A stretch of DNA of 64,000 nt. It comes from an uncultured Alsobacter sp. (GTDB lineage Bacteria > Pseudomonadota > Alphaproteobacteria > Rhizobiales > Beijerinckiaceae). Where the stretch lies: the NCBI RefSeq assembly GCF_945952055.1, contig NZ_CAMFHB010000035.1, forward strand, positions 1-64,000, given 5' to 3'. The position numbers and the translations under genes are program-made. How positions within the stretch are numbered: the stretch's first letter is position 1; the number at the start of each line of letters is the position of its first letter. Below are positions 26,197 to 48,690 of the stretch, piece after piece. The notes beneath the pieces were generated by a model that ran no database searches, was not told the DNA's origin, and worked only from the letters and a program-made list of their open reading frames with translations.

Positions 26197-28654
<2,458 letters not shown>

Positions 28655-28681: not shown

Positions 28682-29398
28682 ATGGAGCGGGATGTGGCGT
28701 TGAGGTGCATCTCCTCCATGGCGACGAAGACGCTGCTCGGCGAGCTGGCGCGGCTGCTCGGCGAACGGGCGGGCGGCGCCATCGACGTCGAGTCGATCGG
28801 CGGCGTCGACGCGGCCCGGCGGGTCCGGGCCGGCGAGGCGCTGGACCTCGTGGTGCTGTCGCACACGGTGATGGGGGCGCTGGAAAACGAAGGCCACGTC
28901 GCTCGCGGCAGCCTCGTCCCGCTGGCGCGCTCGTCCACGGCCTTCGCGGTCGCCGCGGGCGCCGCGCGGCCCGACCTGTCGTCGCGCGACGCGCTGCAGC
29001 GCGCGCTCCTGGAGGCGCCTGCGATCGCCTATTCGACGGGGCCGAGCGGGGACCATCTCATCGGCCTGATCGAGCGCTGGGGGCTGCGGGCCTCCCTCGA
29101 GGGCAAGCTCGTCAAGGCGCCCCCGGGCGTGCCCGTCGGCGGCCTCGTGGCGGACGGGCGGGCATCCCTCGGCTTCCAGCAGTACAGCGAACTCTTCGAA
29201 GTGCCGGGGATCGACGTCGTCACGGCCGTCGCGCCGGAGGCCACTGCGACGACGGTGTTCACGGGCGCCGTCGCATCGACCTCCGCCGAGCCGGATCTTG
29301 CCGCGCAGGTCCTGCGGGACATGGGGGCGGATGCGCTCGCCCCGGTCTACGCGCGGTGCGGCATGTCACTGGTTCGGGCAGACAGCCCGGGCCGCTGA
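28682..29398 (+). CDS. Cytoplasmic ModA-like substrate-binding protein
   Basis: A 238-aa type 2 periplasmic-binding-protein fold related to molybdate-binding ModA (LRCISSMATKTLLGEL, IGGVDAARRVRAGEALDLVVLS, GPSGDHLIGLIERWG). No signal peptide is present, so it appears cytoplasmic, and no ABC permease is nearby. Proteins of this kind are usually annotated as substrate-binding domain proteins of unknown role. It may share the katG transcript. Confidence 0.75.
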   Translation: MERDVALRCISSMATKTLLGELARLLGERAGGAIDVESIGGVDAARRVRAGEALDLVVLSHTVMGALENEGHVARGSLVPLARSSTAFAVAAGAARPDLSSRDALQRALLEAPAIAYSTGPSGDHLIGLIERWGLRASLEGKLVKAPPGVPVGGLVADGRASLGFQQYSELFEVPGIDVVTAVAPEATATTVFTGAVASTSAEPDLAAQVLRDMGADALAPVYARCGMSLVRADSPGR

Positions 29399-35005: not shown

Positions 35006-35430
35006 CCGGGAGGGCCCGCCGGCCCGTGCTCGGTCTTGTTCCAGCGAAACGGGGCATCGAGCAGCTCCCACAGCGCCACCCAGGCCGCGACGGAAATCAG
35101 GGCGAGGTAGGGCAGCGCGAGGAGCGCGTCGAGCGCGCCCAGCCGGATCGCCCTTCGCCTGGCGGCGATCCAGGCGGGTCCGGCGACCGTCACCGCCCCG
35201 GCCGCCAGCACCACCCACGACAGCGCCACGCCCGAGAGGTCGAGCATGCCGTCGGGGTGCAGGCTGCTGCCGTCGACGAGGCGGACGACCAGCGATCCCA
35301 TGAAGAGCGGGGCGCCGATGGCGGCGAGCACCGTGCCCCACCCGTGCGTGACCACGGCCAGCCGCGCCACCGGCCCGCCCGGCCAGGGCTTGCGCCACTC
35401 CCGACTGTGGACCAGGGCAGTCTGCATCCA
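34996..35430 (-). pseudogene. Glycosyltransferase, C-terminal fragment (split by the island)
   Basis: The minus-strand frame GWMQTALVHSREW... through several membrane segments (LFMGSLVVRLV, WVVLAAGAVTVAG, LPYLALISVAAWVAL) to the stop at 34996 is the missing C-terminus of the glycosyltransferase at 47289-48690. Joining the two at the shared GCATCCA gives exactly 610 codons in one frame, with a continuous RVRWMKGWMQT motif. The fragment has no start of its own; the ORF-track entry reads back into the island. The coding half is probably silent. Confidence 0.92.
35424..35430. repeat. attL core (GCATCCA)
   Basis: This is the left copy of the 7-bp direct repeat at the island boundary. Rejoining the island's two ends gives the attP core AAAGGcGCATCCAaCCTTT, where AAAGG and CCTTT are perfect inverted arms around the overlap, as in core sites of tyrosine recombinases. 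Confidence 0.8.
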
Positions 35431-35551
35431 ACCTTTTCGCTTCGGTTTCGGAAGTGATCCGCCTGTTGCTGAATGTTTCGATTGCCAAGCGTTTTCAAGC
35501 ACGTAATTGTTCGTCCGCGTTTCCCGATGTTCCGGTCGGTTCCGGAATTCT

Positions 35552-35570
35552 GTTGCGACCGTGTTGCGAC
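35552..35570 (+). repeat. Left pair of integrase arm-type repeats
   Basis: GTTGCGAC occurs twice, 11 bp start to start, between attL and the integrase gene. The same pair with the same spacing and orientation occurs near the right end (47196-47214). Paired octamers one helical turn apart near both ends suggest arm-binding sites for the integrase N-terminal domain. Confidence 0.7.
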
Positions 35571-35595
35571 GGAGGGATCTCGGAGGATCGACGCG

Positions 35596-36867
35596 ATGCC
35601 GAAAAGCGGTTCCGGAGCGACGCGGGAGGCCCGGCCTCTCACCTCCCGGGCGATTGAGGCGATGCTGCCGGAGGCGGCCCCCTATCGGGTCCCGGATGCA
35701 CGGACGAAGGGCCTTGCGGTGCGGGTCGCCACTGACGGCAAGAGGACCTTCGACCTTGCGTTCCGCGTCAAGCACGGGAAGGTCCGGCGGACCTCGCTCG
35801 GTGAGTGGCCGGGGACCACGCTCGAACAGGCCCGCGACCGCGCACATGCCCTCACCTCGGCAGCCCGGAAGGGGGTCGACCTGCTCGCGGACGAGGAGGA
35901 GGCTCGCATCGAGGCCGCGCGGCGGGTGACGGTCTCGGCCCTCATCGCGGAGTACATGAAGCGGTCCGTTCGGAAGAATGGGTTGAGGACAGCGGACGAG
36001 ATCGAGCGCCGACTGAAGCGGGCGCTCGCCTCGCTCCTCGACACCCGGGCGGCCGACGTGAAGCGGCGGGACATTCGGGACGTCCTCGACGCAGTGTCGG
36101 ACGAGGGCCTCGAACGAGAGGCTGAGAAGCGCCGGCAGGTCATTGGCGCGATGTTCAAGTGGGCAGTTGGGCGCGACCTGATCGAGAATGACCCCACGGC
36201 AGGGTTGAAGGCGTACGACACCGGGGCGCCTCGGGACCGGGTCCTGTCGGACGACGAGGTCCGCGCCCTGTGGGCTTGGTTGGATGCAGCAGACCTCCCC
36301 GGAGGCCACCCGGAGGTCCTCCGGTTGCAACTCCTGCTTGGTGCGCGCTGCGGCGAGGTCGCCGGCATCGAGGCCGGCGAGGTTGATCGAGAGACGTGGG
36401 TCTGGACGCTCCCGGCCGCGCGCTCGAAGAACAAGAGGCAGCGCCTCACCCCGCTGGTCGGTCTCGCCCGGGAGATCGTCGAGGCCAACTGGCCGGCGAG
36501 CGGACGCGGGCCGCTTTTCACGACCGAGACGGGGCGCGCGATGCGCGCATCGAACGTGGGCCAGAGCCTCTTGAACCGAGAGGACCGGCTCCCGATCGCA
36601 AAGTTCACAACCCACGATCTCAGGAGAACCGCCGCGACGAAGCTCGCCGAGATGGGCATACAACTCGACCTTGTCGCGGCCATCGTCGGTCACGAGGCGG
36701 GCGGGAAGAACGTCCGGACGCTCGTCCGCCACTACGTTCACACCGACCAGATCGAGAGAAAGGCTACGGCGCTTCTCGCGTGGGATGCCCGAGTGCGTGA
36801 GATCGTCGAGGACCGCCAGCCGGCGTCGAAGGTGGTCGACTTCGCTTCTGCCCGGGGCGTCGCATGA
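35596..36867 (+). CDS. int: Tyrosine-type site-specific integrase (DUF4102 arm-binding type)
   Basis: A 423-aa integrase. The N-terminal DUF4102-like arm-binding domain (DARTKGLAVRVATDG, TSLGEWPGTTLEQARDRA) precedes a core-binding helical domain and the catalytic domain with Arg in LLLGARCGEVAG, His-x-x-Arg in THDLRRTAAT, His in VGHEAG and the nucleophile Tyr in VRHYVH. All catalytic residues are present, so it should be active. The ATG at 35596 has GGAGGA upstream; the ORF-track start at 35473 would read through the arm repeats. Its stop overlaps the next gene (ATGA). Confidence 0.93.
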   Translation: MPKSGSGATREARPLTSRAIEAMLPEAAPYRVPDARTKGLAVRVATDGKRTFDLAFRVKHGKVRRTSLGEWPGTTLEQARDRAHALTSAARKGVDLLADEEEARIEAARRVTVSALIAEYMKRSVRKNGLRTADEIERRLKRALASLLDTRAADVKRRDIRDVLDAVSDEGLEREAEKRRQVIGAMFKWAVGRDLIENDPTAGLKAYDTGAPRDRVLSDDEVRALWAWLDAADLPGGHPEVLRLQLLLGARCGEVAGIEAGEVDRETWVWTLPAARSKNKRQRLTPLVGLAREIVEANWPASGRGPLFTTETGRAMRASNVGQSLLNREDRLPIAKFTTHDLRRTAATKLAEMGIQLDLVAAIVGHEAGGKNVRTLVRHYVHTDQIERKATALLAWDARVREIVEDRQPASKVVDFASARGVA

Positions 36868-37657: not shown

Positions 37658-37897
37658 ATGAACCACTCGAACAAGATCAGCGACAGCGGCGGCGACAGCC
37701 GTTCCGCCATCGCCCCGCGCCTCCTCACCGAGGAGCAGGCGCGCGCCGCGCTCGGCGGTATCAGCCGCACCACGATGCATCGCATGATGGTCGGCGGGCG
37801 CATCCGCGTCGTGAAGCTCGGACGCCTGAACATGGTGCCGGTCGAGGAGATCGACCGCGTCATTGCCGCCCTCCCGGCCGCGCGCGAGGTGGCCTGA
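37658..37897 (+). CDS. AlpA/excisionase-like helix-turn-helix protein
   Basis: A 79-aa MerR-type winged helix protein: LLTEEQARAALGGISRTTMHRMMVGGRIRVVKLG, then a second helix VEEIDRVIAAL. This is the helix-turn-helix_17 (excisionase/AlpA) pattern. In P4-like elements AlpA switches on excision and early genes. It starts the gene block after a 173-bp AT-richer gap and has a good AAGGGA ribosome site. Confidence 0.8.
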   Translation: MNHSNKISDSGGDSRSAIAPRLLTEEQARAALGGISRTTMHRMMVGGRIRVVKLGRLNMVPVEEIDRVIAALPAAREVA

Positions 37898-38994: not shown

Positions 38995-39974
38995 ATGACC
39001 GAGCCCATCACCCTCTTAGCAAAGTGGCGTCTCGCGCAGGCCATTGCGGCTGACCCGAACACGCCTCCGTCGGCTCTCCGGGTCGCCCTCCGGCTGCTCG
39101 ACCACCTGAACGGCAAGACGGGCCGCTGCGACCCCGCCCACGCGACAATCGGTGCCGCCCTTGGCATCGGCCGCCGCACCGTTGTCGATGCAATCCACGC
39201 GCTTGAACGGGCCGGTTGGCTGCGGGTCGAGCGTGGCGGCGGCGATCCGAACGCCCCGAACGGCTACTCGACGAACTCGTATCAGTTCGCCGTGGAGAGG
39301 CTCGGCGAGGTTCCCGAGGCCGGACGGGACGACGATCCCCCCCGTGCAGAAACTTGCACCCCGGGGGGTGCGGAAGTTCGCACCTCCCCCCGTGCGGGAA
39401 TTCGCACCCCCCCGGTGGTCATTTCCGCACCCCCCCGGGGTGCGGAAATCCGCACACAAACTATGAACAGGTCTACCGGGAAGAGAAACCGGGAACGGGA
39501 AACACTTATCCCCCTTCCCCCTCACCTCGTTCTTCGCGCGACCGGGCGACCGGACTGCCGGACGAACTCCGGGCCGACTTCTCCCTCTTCTGGTCGATCT
39601 ATCCGCGCCGTGAGCGCGTCGGGGCGGCCGAGGCTGCTTTCGCTCAGGCGGTCGCCAACGGCGCGGACCCCGCCGACCTCATCCACGGGGTCCGCGCCTA
39701 TGCCCGGTCTGTGAAGGGGAGCGAGCCGAAGTACGTCGCGGGTGCTGCCCGCTGGCTCGCCGAGCGTCGCTGGACGGACGAGCCGCCGGCCCCGTCTACC
39801 GGCCCCGACCCCATCACACTGGACGGCGACGGCAACATCGTCGCCGTCCCGCCTACGGCGCAAGCCGCACCTCGTCGGCGCATGACACCTGCCGAGGAAA
39901 TCCTCTCCGCCTTCACCCCCGATGCTCTCGAAGAAATGGACGCCAATTGGAGGGCTCGCCGCAATGGCCACTGA
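38995..39974 (+). CDS. Lambda-O-like replication initiator, split over two frames
   Basis: The N-terminal 110 residues carry a helix-turn-helix of the replication-protein type (NTPPSALRVALRLLDHLNG, HATIGAALGIGRRTVVDAIHALERAGWL). The C-terminal part (DELRADFSLFWSIYPRRE ... YVAGAARWLAERRW) is in another frame, as in phage and plasmid replication proteins with a FWxxYPRR motif. The frame changes somewhere in the C- and G-run-rich block around 39338-39540, which also holds five iterons. A one-base difference would fuse the frames; slippage, decay or base-calling error are possible. Frame 1 alone ends at 39714. The likely role is binding the iterons to start replication of the element. Confidence 0.7.
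39344..39455. repeat. Five 24-bp iterons inside the replication gene (putative origin)
   Basis: Five 16-bp near-palindromes occur at 39344, 39368, 39392, 39415 and 39440 (steps 24, 24, 23, 25). The examples GTGCGGAAGTTCGCAC and GTGCGGAAATCCGCAC are separated by C/G runs; the fourth is the least conserved. This matches the arrangement of lambda ori inside gene O. Each could form a hairpin. Confidence 0.8.
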
Positions 39975-40551
39975 CATCGTCTCGTCGAACTCCCGGACAG
40001 AACTCGCGCCGTACATCAAGGCTCACATCGCGACTGCGCACCGTCTACGCCAGCTCAAGGCGGAGATCAGCGTCGACGGAGGTCACCGGTACAACGAAAT
40101 CCGGGCGCTGGAATTGGTCCGCTCCGGCGAAGTCACCCGCGCCGGCATGCAGACGACGGTCGCGACCTTGACCACCGCGATCTACACGCCGTCCCCGCCC
40201 GTCTCGCTGCTCGCCGTCCTCGTGGAGCGAATGACGTCGCTGCCTCGTGCCAACGTCGATCTGGTCGCGTGGGCCCGGCACACGGTCGAGCTTCTCTCCG
40301 AGGAGGAGGTCGACGAGGACAGCGCCGAGGCTTGGTACGACGTTGCGGGCGGCTTCTCGGCCGCGATCGTTCACGTCGCGGCGACGAACATCCTTGCGAG
40401 CGAGCGATGGCTGCCTCCGCCCGCCGCTGTCCTCGAAGCCTGCAAGGCCGTCCGTCTCGCGCTGATCCACGACCTCTCGGTGGCCCGCTACTTCGAGAAG
40501 CTGGCCGCCAAGACGGACCCGGACGCCCCGGGCGTCTGGGATCTCGACTAA
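39964..40551 (+). CDS. Island protein following the replication gene, unknown
   Basis: A 195-aa helical protein (MATDIVSSNSRTELAPYIKAHIA ... LDLVAWARHTVELLSEEEVDED). Its start overlaps the end of the replication gene, so it is translationally coupled. By position it could be a helicase loader comparable to lambda P, but no P-loop or other motif is visible. The ATG at 39964 is preferred to 39922. Confidence 0.65.
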   Translation: MATDIVSSNSRTELAPYIKAHIATAHRLRQLKAEISVDGGHRYNEIRALELVRSGEVTRAGMQTTVATLTTAIYTPSPPVSLLAVLVERMTSLPRANVDLVAWARHTVELLSEEEVDEDSAEAWYDVAGGFSAAIVHVAATNILASERWLPPPAAVLEACKAVRLALIHDLSVARYFEKLAAKTDPDAPGVWDLD

Positions 40552-42008: not shown

Positions 42009-44474
42009 GTGACGAAGATTATTGAAGCACAGGCGATCATCTCCGCGAAGGACAACACGGGCGGGGCGTTTGCCGCCGTCTCGAAGAAGCTGACGGACAT
42101 CTCCAGAGCGGGGAAAGTCGTCGGCGAGAGCATGTCCGGGATGGGTCGGCAGATTGGTCTCATGCAGGACAAGCTTGCGAAGATCCAAAACTTCAGGGCG
42201 ATGCACACCGGCCTCGTCGAGGCTCGGACGAAGTTCCGGGACGCGCAGCGCGAGGTCGAGCGGCTCGGGCGGGCGGTCGGGGAGGCCGCGAAGCCGAGCC
42301 GGGATCTGGCTCGCGCCTATGAACAGGCGCAGCGCGCGGTCAAGGGAGCATCGCAGGCGTTCAAGCAACAGGCCGAGGCGGTCTCGGCGGCGAAGCGCGA
42401 ACTCGGGTCTGCCGGGGTCCCGATCAATCGTCTCGCGAGCGCGCAGGATCACCTCCGCAAGTCGATCGACAGCGCGAATGCGAGCCTCGCGAGGCAGGCG
42501 TCCTACCGGCGGCTCATTCAGGCTTCGCCCGACGTCCGCTCGCCCGTCGCGACCCGCGCCGGCGTCGGCTCCGGGGCGGGTGACCTCGTCGGCGGCGTCG
42601 CCGGAGTGGTCGGAGCCGGCAAGCTCGGTCAGGTCGCCGGGAGGGCCGTCGAGGGCTGGACGACGATGGACGAGGCGCTTCGGCGTCAACAGGCCATCAT
42701 GTCGATCTCGCCCGAGACGCAGGGCCCGCTTAAGGCGCAAGCGTTCCGGATCGGTCAGGACACGCGGTTTACGAACCCTGACGTGGTCCGGGCGCAGACC
42801 ACGATCTCGACCCGTCTCCCGAAAGAAGCGCAGACCGTCGGCGTCGTCTCGGGGATCACCGAGGCCGCGCGCGACTACGCCCTCGCGATGGGCACGACGA
42901 TGGACGAGGGAGCCGAGGCGATCATCGCCCGGATGCTCGCTCGTCGGATGGACATGAGCACGCCCGAGGCGGCCGGCGCGAGCGCGCGGCACGCCGCGAA
43001 CCGGCTCGTCCAGCGCGCGAAGATCTCGGGCGCGAAGCACGACGACCTGATGGGCTCGACGAAGTTCGGCGCGGCCCCGGGGCAGGTCGCCGGGTTCTCG
43101 GAAGAGTTTCAGGACGCGTTCGAGGCGCAACTTCAGCGTATCGGTTACGAGGGCTCGATGACCGGCAACTTCGCCCGGGCAGCGGCCATGAAGCTTTCGA
43201 CGCCGACGACGAAGGGGCTCGCGGCCATCGCGGCGAGCGGCCTTCGGTACGACGACTACGTCAAGCCGGGGACGAACTTCTCGGCCGGCGGCCTCTCCGA
43301 CATGCTGAAACTCAAGTTCGGCCGAGCGATCTCGGGCGATCAGATCTCGAAGCTGAACGAGATCTTCGACGACGAGACCGTCACGGGCGACCGGGGCGAG
43401 TTCGTCTCGCGGGTCTCGGGCGTCCTCGGGGAGAGCTTCGCCCGGAAGACCAAAAGCGGGAAGGTGAACGCGCAGGACGCGGAGCGGATCGCGAAGACCG
43501 CCGACCAGTTCTACACCCTCAACGCGCAGGGCGTTCAATCCGAGCGCCTGATGGCCGACCTCGTCAAGCAGGGGCTCTCGCCGGCCGTCGCTCGATACCT
43601 CTTCGGGCAAGAGCACGGCGGTCGAGCGCAGTCGCTCAATTACGAGCAACTGCTCCGCGACCAGCAGACGATGAAGGACACGCCGGGGAACCGGGCCGCG
43701 AAGATCGGCGAGGACATCAACGCGGGTGCCTATGGCGCTTATCAGCGGATGATCGGCTCGATCGAGACCTTCACGACCCGGCTCGGCGAGGCGAACGACC
43801 GGATCATGACCGTCGGCTTCGACAAGCTCGGGAACGCGATCGACGCGATCTCGAACCTGCCGAACCCGATCGTCGCGTTCGGAACGGCGGTCACGGCGGC
43901 AACCGGCGGCCTCGTGGCTCTGGCGGGAGCCTCCCGGATCGCGGCCTTCGCGGGGATCCCGGGCGCGGCCACGGTCGGAGCGGCGGCCGGCGGCATCCTC
44001 GCGTTCGGCGGCCGAGTGGTTGGTGCGCTCGTCCCGCCCCTCGGGGCGGCGGCGACCGGCTACTACCTCGGGAACAAGGCCGGCGAGGGTCTCTCGGTCG
44101 TCGGCGAGGCCGCTGCCGGGAAGCACTGGACGCCGAAGGGCGACGCCGAGCGCGCCGACCTGAAGGAGCGGGCCGCGAAGCTCGAAATGATGATCAAGAA
44201 CACCGAGGAGCGGTCGAAGCTCCCGGACGTGGCGGCGGTCGTCACCGGGCCGATGAGGTCGGAGCTTCAGGACATCCGGAACCGCCTCAATTCCGAGGTG
44301 AAGGTGCAGGGGACCGCCGAAGTGAAGGTGACGATCGAGCCCTCGGGAGCCTTGAGCGATCTCCTCAAGCGGGCCGAGAGCGCCGGGAAGATGGCGATCT
44401 CAAACGGTCCCGGGTCGAACGGGACGACGATGCCCGAGGCCGCCCCTCCGCGTCGGGGACGTGGGGACCTCTGA
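42009..44474 (+). CDS. Phage tail tape-measure protein
   Basis: An 821-aa protein beginning GTG. The N-terminal 200 residues are long amphipathic helices (AREVERLGRAVGEA-like heptads, ARAYEQAQRAVKGASQAFKQQ) of the tape-measure type. A central globular part follows, then near residues 615-690 a Gly/Ala-rich hydrophobic region (AFGTAVTAATGGLVALAG, GAATVGAAAGGILAF). This is the pattern of TP901-type tape-measure proteins, which set tail length and enter the target cell envelope. It is the only structural gene in the island. The frame is intact across 2.5 kb with no stops. Confidence 0.85.
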   Translation: MTKIIEAQAIISAKDNTGGAFAAVSKKLTDISRAGKVVGESMSGMGRQIGLMQDKLAKIQNFRAMHTGLVEARTKFRDAQREVERLGRAVGEAAKPSRDLARAYEQAQRAVKGASQAFKQQAEAVSAAKRELGSAGVPINRLASAQDHLRKSIDSANASLARQASYRRLIQASPDVRSPVATRAGVGSGAGDLVGGVAGVVGAGKLGQVAGRAVEGWTTMDEALRRQQAIMSISPETQGPLKAQAFRIGQDTRFTNPDVVRAQTTISTRLPKEAQTVGVVSGITEAARDYALAMGTTMDEGAEAIIARMLARRMDMSTPEAAGASARHAANRLVQRAKISGAKHDDLMGSTKFGAAPGQVAGFSEEFQDAFEAQLQRIGYEGSMTGNFARAAAMKLSTPTTKGLAAIAASGLRYDDYVKPGTNFSAGGLSDMLKLKFGRAISGDQISKLNEIFDDETVTGDRGEFVSRVSGVLGESFARKTKSGKVNAQDAERIAKTADQFYTLNAQGVQSERLMADLVKQGLSPAVARYLFGQEHGGRAQSLNYEQLLRDQQTMKDTPGNRAAKIGEDINAGAYGAYQRMIGSIETFTTRLGEANDRIMTVGFDKLGNAIDAISNLPNPIVAFGTAVTAATGGLVALAGASRIAAFAGIPGAATVGAAAGGILAFGGRVVGALVPPLGAAATGYYLGNKAGEGLSVVGEAAAGKHWTPKGDAERADLKERAAKLEMMIKNTEERSKLPDVAAVVTGPMRSELQDIRNRLNSEVKVQGTAEVKVTIEPSGALSDLLKRAESAGKMAISNGPGSNGTTMPEAAPPRRGRGDL

Positions 44475-44979
44475 CCCCTGCTCCCGGATAGCCCCGCGCC
44501 TTCGCAGGCGCGGGCGCTGGCGGGCTCGGACAGTGCCTCGGCTACTCGGGTGGCGGATCGCCCACGCGGCCCCCACGGGCCTCCGTTGCGAGAGGCGTTT
44601 AAGCAGAACCGGGATCACCGCCGAGATCGACGAAAACCTGATCCGCCGGAGCCTCTCCCCCGCCATCCGCTCGCGCCTGACGGACGAGCGGAAGGCGATC
44701 TTCGAGGAGGAGCATCCGGAGACGAAGCACGGTGGGGATCGGCGTTCAAGTGCTCAAGTTGAGCACTTGAACGTGACGGACCGCTTCACTCGCGAGGTCT
44801 CGCGCCGGACCGGCCGGTCGGAGCAGAGCGTCCGCCGCGACGCCCAGCGCGGGAAGATCCTCGGCCCCGCTCTCCTCGACCGGGTCGCCGGGACGAGCCT
44901 CGACAAGGGCTCGAAGCTCGACGCCCTCGCGAAGCTCCCGGAGCCCGAGTGGAAGGCTACTGTGTTGCTCGAAACTTGA
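44461..44979 (+). pseudogene. ParB-type partition protein, C-terminal fragment
   Basis: From about 44611 the frame encodes AEIDENLIRRSLSPA, ERKAIFEEEHPETKHGGDRR, FTREVSRRTGRSEQSVRRDAQRG and TSLDKGSKLDALAKLPEPE, the central and C-terminal part of ParB/Srx-like proteins found on phages and islands. The nuclease domain that should precede it is missing; the ORF's first 50 residues are Arg-rich and out of keeping. It ends early at the stop at 44979. It is best read as a deleted remnant. Confidence 0.7.
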
Positions 44980-47288: not shown

Positions 47289-47295
47289 GCATCCA
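47289..47295. repeat. attR core (GCATCCA)
   Basis: This is the right copy of the boundary repeat; see the entry at 35424. The host sequence resumes at 47296 with GCCCTTCATCC, the codons for WMKG of the glycosyltransferase on the minus strand. Confidence 0.8.
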
Positions 47296-48690
47296 GCCCT
47301 TCATCCACCGCACGCGCTGCGGAAACCATCGCCGCAGGGTCGCGGGCGCCTCCTCCAGCGTGGTCGACGCCAGCATCGCGGTCCGGAACCCGCGCCGCGC
47401 CAGGCGGAGCCCGACGTCGGCGTCCTCCGTCACGTTCCAGGCGTCCCAGCCGCCCGCGGTGATCAGGGCCCGGCGCCGGAAGTGATTGGAGGTGCCGCCG
47501 AGCGGAACGGGCACCGCGAGCCGTGTCATCCCCGGCAGGGTCACGTCGAAAAGCATCGCGTATTCGAGGCGGAACAGGCGCGCCAGCCATCCGTCGCCGC
47601 CATTGTGGATGGCCAGCGAGGCCTGCAGGCAGCCGACGTCCTCGCCCAGCCGGGCGAAGGTGGCGGCTGAAAGCCGCAACTGCGCCGGCTCGGGGCGGTC
47701 CTCGGCGTCGTAGACGACGAGCAGGTCCCCACGCGTCAACGCGAGGCCGATGTTCAGGGCCCGGGGCTTCGTCCGCGGAGTGCCGTCCGGGCACGTCACG
47801 GTGCGCATGCCCGTCGGCAGGAGGAGGCGCGACAGGGACGCCCGGGTCAGCCGGTCTCCCGCCTCGACGAGAAGCAGGATCTCCAGGCGGGCCCGCGGAT
47901 AGTCCAGCCGCGCCAGGGCCGCGACCAACCCGCGCACGACCGCGTCCCCCTCGCGGTAGAGCGGCACGAGCACGGTGTAGGTGGGAACAGGGCGGTCGTG
48001 CGGCGCCGTGGCCCGATCGCGCACCCGTGGCTCGCCGGCCGCGGCCAGGCGCAGCGACATCGCCGACAGGAACAGAAGACCGAGGACGGCCTGCAGGATG
48101 GCGAGCGCCGCGCCGGGGTCGATGGCCGACCCCGCGGCCGACAGCGCGACGCAGGCGAGGCCGGTCCGGGCCTCGCGCGCGGTCGCCTCGCTCCTGTACG
48201 ACGCGCTGCCCGATGCCTCCGGCAGGCCGTCCGCGCCGTGGCTCGCCACGGCAGCGGCCGACCCCGCCAGCACGGCCGCCTCGAGGCGCCCGGGCGTGGT
48301 GACCGCGAAGTCCCGCGGCGCGCGCCCGGCCAGGGAGAGACCGATGAGCACCCTGATCGCCGCGGCGCGGGGCGCCACCACGACGCGATGGCCCAGGCCG
48401 GGCACCGCCCGCGCATGGCCGGTGGCGATGATGACCGGCACGTCGGCGGCCTCGCAGACGACCCTCGGCGTCGCCACGAACGGAAACCCGCACTCGCCGG
48501 CAAGGGCACGGTAGAAACCGTCCTCCGAGATCGCGCCGGACGCGATGAGGACCCTCTCGGTGCTGGCGCCCGTCTTGCGCGCCTCGATGGCCGCGCCGGC
48601 CAGTTGCAGGGCCGAGACGCCGTGGCCCATGAGGAACATCAGGTCTCGCGCGTGCAGGCGATGGGGATCGGGATCGGGATCGTGGATCAT
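47289..48690 (-). pseudogene. Glycosyltransferase family 2, N-terminal fragment (split by the island)
   Basis: The minus-strand frame from the ATG at 48690 has an N-terminal GspE-N-like domain (HARDLMFLMGHGVS, GASTERVLIASGAISEDGFYRALA) and membrane segments. A GT-A domain follows, with VLVPLYREGD, VVYDAEDRPEP (DxD), GGTSNHFRRRAL, TEDADVGLRL and the QxxRW motif QRVRWMKGW. At that point the island interrupts it; the frame continues into island sequence to a stop at 46804. The missing C-terminal domain is at 34996-35430. The reconstructed gene would encode 609 aa of a processive glycosyltransferase. Confidence 0.92.

Follow-up and report, generated by a model that had tools for sequence, protein, structure and literature searches.

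An iteron array inside an O-like initiator gene as a probable lambda-type origin on an integrated element of Alsobacter

Why should the gene of a DNA-binding protein carry a row of regularly spaced palindromes in the middle of its own coding sequence? This question is raised by a 64,000-nucleotide stretch of an uncultured Alsobacter sp. (contig NZ_CAMFHB010000035.1, positions 1 to 64,000; hereafter the window), in which a small integrated element encodes a helix-turn-helix (HTH) protein of the replication-initiator type. An earlier note on this DNA had described the repeats and had likened them to the replication origin (ori) that phage lambda carries in its gene O. Because the array is beyond chance, the protein matches O-like families and is modelled as a winged helix, the arrangement recurs in relatives, the sites covary with the recognition helix, an AT-rich tract follows and the whole resembles lambda, we consider it probable (roughly 0.86) that the block descends from a lambda-type iteron origin within the gene of its own initiator, with sites that are read by the N-terminal domain of this very protein.

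Five phased dyads in the linker of an O-like initiator

Five near-palindromes with cores of 16 base pairs (bp) were found at the positions given in the earlier note, starting at 39344, 39368, 39392, 39415 and 39440. In register, the units are 18-bp near-palindromes of the type GGTGCG-N6-CGCACC and form a block from 39343 to 39456 on the plus strand, composed of iteron 1 (39343..39360, CGTGCAGAAACTTGCACC), iteron 2 (39367..39384, GGTGCGGAAGTTCGCACC), iteron 3 (39391..39408, CGTGCGGGAATTCGCACC), iteron 4 (39414..39431, GGTGGTCATTTCCGCACC) and iteron 5 (39439..39456, GGTGCGGAAATCCGCACA). The start-to-start distances are 24, 24, 23 and 25 bp, so that the 24-bp period proposed before holds for the first two intervals but not strictly. 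Iteron 4 starts one base early and is the most degenerate copy, with 8 of 16 positions symmetric; it lies in codon phase 0, the other four in phase 1.

The block is located in the linker between a winged-helix domain and a C-terminal domain. The N-terminal part of the initiator, comprising the winged helix and the iteron linker (38995..39480, plus strand, frame A, open to 39714), matches PHROG 391 (E 7e-12), PHROG 270 (E 6e-9) and Pfam HTH_36 (25.9 bits, cut-off 25), and the PHROG annotation of its family reads 'replication initiation O-like'. An AlphaFold2 model of this domain shows a winged helix (mean predicted local distance difference test score, pLDDT, 89.8), with the recognition helix at residues 60-72 (39172..39210, plus strand). 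The C-terminal domain (39576..39791, plus strand, open to 39974) was identified by PHROG 270 (positions 138-257, E 4e-16), by a match to profile A2 and by codon usage. Its frame (B) is shifted by one base relative to frame A; the placement of the repeats in the coding region of an HTH replication protein is thus correct with respect to the winged-helix domain, but the C-terminal domain in the other frame had been missed.

In 60,000 simulated 140-mers, not a single array of five sites at 22-25 bp spacing appeared (one run of four was among them), and the best that the rest of the window offers is likewise one run of four at this spacing. With free spacing and looser matching, the window has one further set of five sites (near 28701), and one such set arose among 4,000 simulations. 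When codons were resampled under the same peptide, 9% of the trials reached five loose copies and 0.3% the observed palindrome count. The five repeats do exist and are far removed from what chance would give; still, the free-spacing and same-peptide tests make the evidence from the window alone weaker, and the decisive evidence therefore comes from the relatives.

Related genes and the coupling of iterons to the recognition helix

Homologues of the initiator were collected from sampled Alphaproteobacterial genomes (52 genes, 53 with the window), and an array was called when at least three 18-bp dyads lay in the linker, beyond codon-shuffled controls. By this measure 23 of the 53 genes, the window included, carry an array at the same place in the linker. 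A chance similarity in GC-rich low-complexity sequence, where short palindromes are frequent and a loose five-site count does turn up a second time in the window, is hardly conceivable given the absence of a regular run of five from the simulations, and the same architecture at the same place in relatives refutes it.

The arrays consist of 3-6 phased copies, more than 330 bp inside the coding region, and the dyads differ between lineages: AGTGTC-N6-GACACT in L035 and L036, GGTGAA-N6-TTCACC in L041, and CCCGTC-N6-GACGGG in L013. Their spacings cluster at 22-25 and 33-36 bp, two classes that differ by steps of about one helical turn, and the commonest value is 23 bp. The suggestion that the repeat fits the reading frame, 24 bp being eight codons, did not survive this comparison: codon multiples as the cause of the spacing are ruled out by the 24/24/23/25 series here, by the prevalence of 23 bp in the family and by lambda, whose iterons lie in codon phases 0, 2, 2 and 1. 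The spacing is geometry-like and not codon-locked.

If the N-terminal domain reads the sites, the recognition helix should change along with the iterons. Distances between iteron arms correlated with distances in six residues of the recognition helix (rho 0.35, p < 0.0005; partial r 0.36), whereas the remainder of the domain showed no such correlation (rho -0.04). When all 106 six-residue segments were scanned without bias, on a set from which close pairs had been taken out, the signal was highest at residues 55-65, the start of the recognition helix (peak of the Mantel scan at 59-64). Furthermore, where two arginines stand at the start of this helix, the half-site contains GTG in 8 of 9 cases, compared to 4 of 18 otherwise (Fisher p 0.003). 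These data suggest that the sites and the protein evolve together.

The covariation also bears on the idea that the repeats serve the protein, as an eight-residue repeat of a flexible linker, and that the DNA repeat is a by-product. Four of the five units do encode a similar peptide (PRGAEIRT-like), and the same-peptide resampling does not reject this idea on loose counts. The palindromes nevertheless exceed the same-peptide control, iteron 4 lies in another codon phase and encodes a different peptide, the commonest spacing in relatives is no multiple of three, and it is the iteron DNA that covaries with the recognition helix. We regard a mere peptide repeat as highly improbable.

The presence of arrays appears to depend on the N-terminal domain. 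In L094, L097, L100, L105 and L087 (gp15 of Azospirillum phage Cd), this C-terminal domain is combined with different, DUF1376-like N-terminal domains, and where such genes were scanned (L097, L087), no iteron array was evident. Phage Cd gp15 and gp52 of Brevibacterium phage Rousseau have the C-terminal domain alone in common with the window protein and lack an array. The iterons thus seem to travel with the winged-helix domain. The comparison with homologues that the earlier note had proposed gave a divided picture, and homologues that keep the protein without the repeats, which would have refuted the note's reading, were seen in part only: many genes carry arrays, some have none by the detector used, and the proteins that combine the same C-terminal with another N-terminal domain lack them. 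A related iteron elsewhere in the same genome (C45) is a single copy outside any recognised rep gene. No close relatives of the N-terminal half, the C-terminal half or the tape-measure protein of the element were confirmed in viral contigs, nor any of the N-terminal half in the named genome collection.

An origin inside an initiator gene is of a kind already known, and the most useful outcome is that iterons and recognition helix are coupled throughout the family. With reader and sites linked in one gene and changing together across the Alphaproteobacteria, the family represents a natural experiment on the co-evolution of initiator and origin. Should binding be confirmed, the pairs of recognition helix and half-site would amount to a specificity code for a group of replicons compatible with one another, and iterons could be found from the gene alone.

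The AT-rich tract and the likeness to lambda ori

Directly behind the last iteron lies an AT-rich, purine-rich stretch (39457..39516, plus strand), which begins with CAAAC, contains short AAACCGGGAA-type repeats and is a candidate DNA unwinding element. It holds the 50-mers of lowest GC content between 38.5 and 40.6 kb (0.48, within the lowest 0.5% of the window), and its 60 bp have a GC content of 0.50 versus 0.69 for the gene. In nearly all arrays, the GC content of the 60 bp behind the last iteron is below that of the gene (Wilcoxon p 3e-6); 15 of 22 arrays have CRAAY where the iterons end, and the tracts behind the iterons show a 12-13-bp periodicity (lag 13, z 5.9).

Lambda ori, which lies centrally in gene O, consists of iterons and an AT-rich tract (PMC7466680), and its iterons are bound by O dimers (PMC5043065). 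Measured in the same way, the four annotated 18-bp iterons of lambda lie 20, 24 and 23 bp apart, and the 60 bp past them have a GC content of 0.32 versus 0.48 for the gene, with a purine fraction of 0.67. In both systems the origin, a probable one in the window, is placed in the linker region of the initiator, and both share 18-bp dyads 20-24 bp apart in any codon phase, an AT-rich and purine-rich tract directly 3' of the iterons, a DNA-binding N-terminal and a separate C-terminal domain, and a partner gene next to the initiator. In contrast to lambda, with four sites of the ATCCCTCAAAACGAGGGA type, the window has five of the GGTGCG-N6-CGCACC type; its C-terminal domain differs, its partner gene is not recognisably P, and its initiator is frame-split and located on a small integrated element. 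The parallel is close in every measured respect, while iteron sequence, C-terminal domain and partner gene differ. The comparison with the origin in gene O was well founded: the anatomy, the recurrence among relatives and the joint variation of iterons and recognition helix all support it.

A second parallel concerns plasmid RK2, where TrfA binds AT-rich 13-mer repeats as single strands and the origin needs these repeats; the AT-rich region of lambda ori likewise has repeated motifs (PMC4081077). As in the window, oriV of RK2 combines iterons with AT-rich short direct repeats of ~13 bp, and its 13-mers, with the consensus TAAACnTTnTTTT, are similar to the CAAACCnnTT units seen in relatives (PMC4081077). 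The window iterons are, unlike those of RK2, dyads inside the initiator gene.

From this anatomy a mode of action can be proposed. The winged-helix domains would bind each 18-bp dyad, probably as dimers like lambda O. With sites about two DNA turns apart, the proteins could stack on one face of the helix to form a nucleoprotein complex, which would put strain on the AT-rich tract that follows directly and open it. Together with the small protein encoded next, the C-terminal domain might then recruit the host's replicative helicase.

A dyad that is recognised by a winged helix is typical of operators as well, and the N-terminal domain might bind its sites solely to keep down the transcription or translation of the gene that encodes it, so that no origin would be involved. 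The same sites can serve both repression and initiation, and nothing in the analysis discriminates between a regulatory and an initiating role of the binding. Operators are, however, quite unlikely to be the whole explanation, considering the depth of the phased copies in the coding region, the conserved AT-rich tract with short repeats directly after them, and proteins that belong to replication-initiator families within an anatomy that is the one of lambda ori.

Several points weigh against a lambda-type origin. More than half of the sampled HTH homologues have no array, at least by a detector tuned to 18-bp dyads. The Mantel permutations behind the covariation allow for shared ancestry only in part, and in a few cases the iteron consensus was assigned by hand. 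In the window copy, the C-terminal domain lies in a different frame from the N-terminal domain. Among the genes of the element, none was recognised as a homologue of lambda P, of DnaC or of a helicase; the product of the gene after the initiator (39964-40551) matched no loader family or loader structure, and its structure model gave no useful match.

The split initiator and its element

Both halves of the initiator match PHROG 270 in order, colinearly but in two frames (positions 42-152, then 138-257), and the N-terminal half also matches PHROG 391; apart from the second frame, they thus resemble the phage initiators of these families. In the relatives L010 and L035, PHROG 270 is matched in a single frame. 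Codon usage in the window shifts to frame B from ~39540. Among the initiators with both domains, 12 of 15 are fused in one frame, and three are split (window, L043 and L048), always in the linker after the iterons; in the window, the break lies within 39456-39576. Neither half contains stops or has lost its domain signature. An intact single-frame initiator with its C-terminal domain, as expected for a lambda-type system, is not present in the window copy.

The split may be due to decay, error or recoding. Present function of the window copy is doubtful with the two halves out of frame, and, barring a sequencing error at the break or recoding that bridges it, its origin may be silent. Hence, the proposal that the island can replicate on its own after excision is doubtful for this copy, the initiator being frame-split and no helicase or recognised loader being present. 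We see about even odds that the locus is a decayed remnant, with an origin that worked in an ancestor, an initiator broken by the frame change and an element that no longer replicates. The domains in different frames, where most comparable genes are fused, the degenerate iteron 4 and a single tape-measure-like gene with no other recognised tail genes speak for decay; the preserved domain signatures without stops and the still well conserved iterons speak against it, and the frame change might stem from an error in sequencing a C-rich stretch or might mark a site of recoding. Such decay is compatible with a lambda-type origin, which concerns the descent and design of the block.

Three lineages have the frame of the C-terminal domain shifted within this linker. 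The frame change might also be a recoding site, giving a protein that only binds DNA (a self-repressor or a competitor for the iterons) and, by frameshifting, the full initiator; we consider this unlikely. Three canonical slippery heptamers occur in the iteron block (39360, 39363 and 39408), but these are expected in C/G runs and were not used as evidence. Within the coding region of the C-terminal domain, positions 39660-39698 form a perfect 13-bp inverted repeat with a 13-nucleotide loop.

The next gene (39964..40551, plus strand) occupies the position of lambda P. It matches a profile of the neighbours in L035, L010, L045 and L049 (32 bits), and encodes a member of an undescribed helical protein family that is kept directly after the initiator in these four relatives. 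No Pfam, PHROG or NCBIfam family matched the product, which is possibly a functional stand-in for lambda P. In L043 the initiator is followed by a protein with a Walker A motif, and in phage Rousseau a DnaB-like helicase gene follows the protein that shares the same C-terminal domain; because of these two neighbours, a link between the C-terminal domain and a helicase is plausible.

Among the other genes of the element are a tyrosine integrase (35473..36867, plus strand; Pfam Phage_integrase E 6e-15, PHROG 1 E 1.5e-51) and a small excisionase- or AlpA-like HTH protein (37658..37897, plus strand; PF12728 with 25.6 bits, just below the cut-off of 27, and PHROG 66 excisionase, E 3e-5). A tape-measure protein (42009-44474, TIGR01760 above cut-off) is followed by a ParB-like gene (44461-44979); besides the tape-measure gene, no tail genes were recognised in the element.

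The element spans ~35.43-47.29 kb (~11.9 kb) and splits a glycosyltransferase gene, with the KGWM codons as its insertion site. At the left junction (35425..35438, GCATCCAACCTTTT), the C-terminal part of this gene lies to the left on the minus strand (34.99-35.43 kb); at the right junction (47289..47302, GCATCCAGCCCTTC), the N-terminal part continues on the minus strand to 48690 (47.29-48.69 kb). A tRNA-Gly at 26197 was ruled out as the insertion target, the target being the glycosyltransferase gene. Related, uninterrupted glycosyltransferase genes are present in three genomes of the genus.
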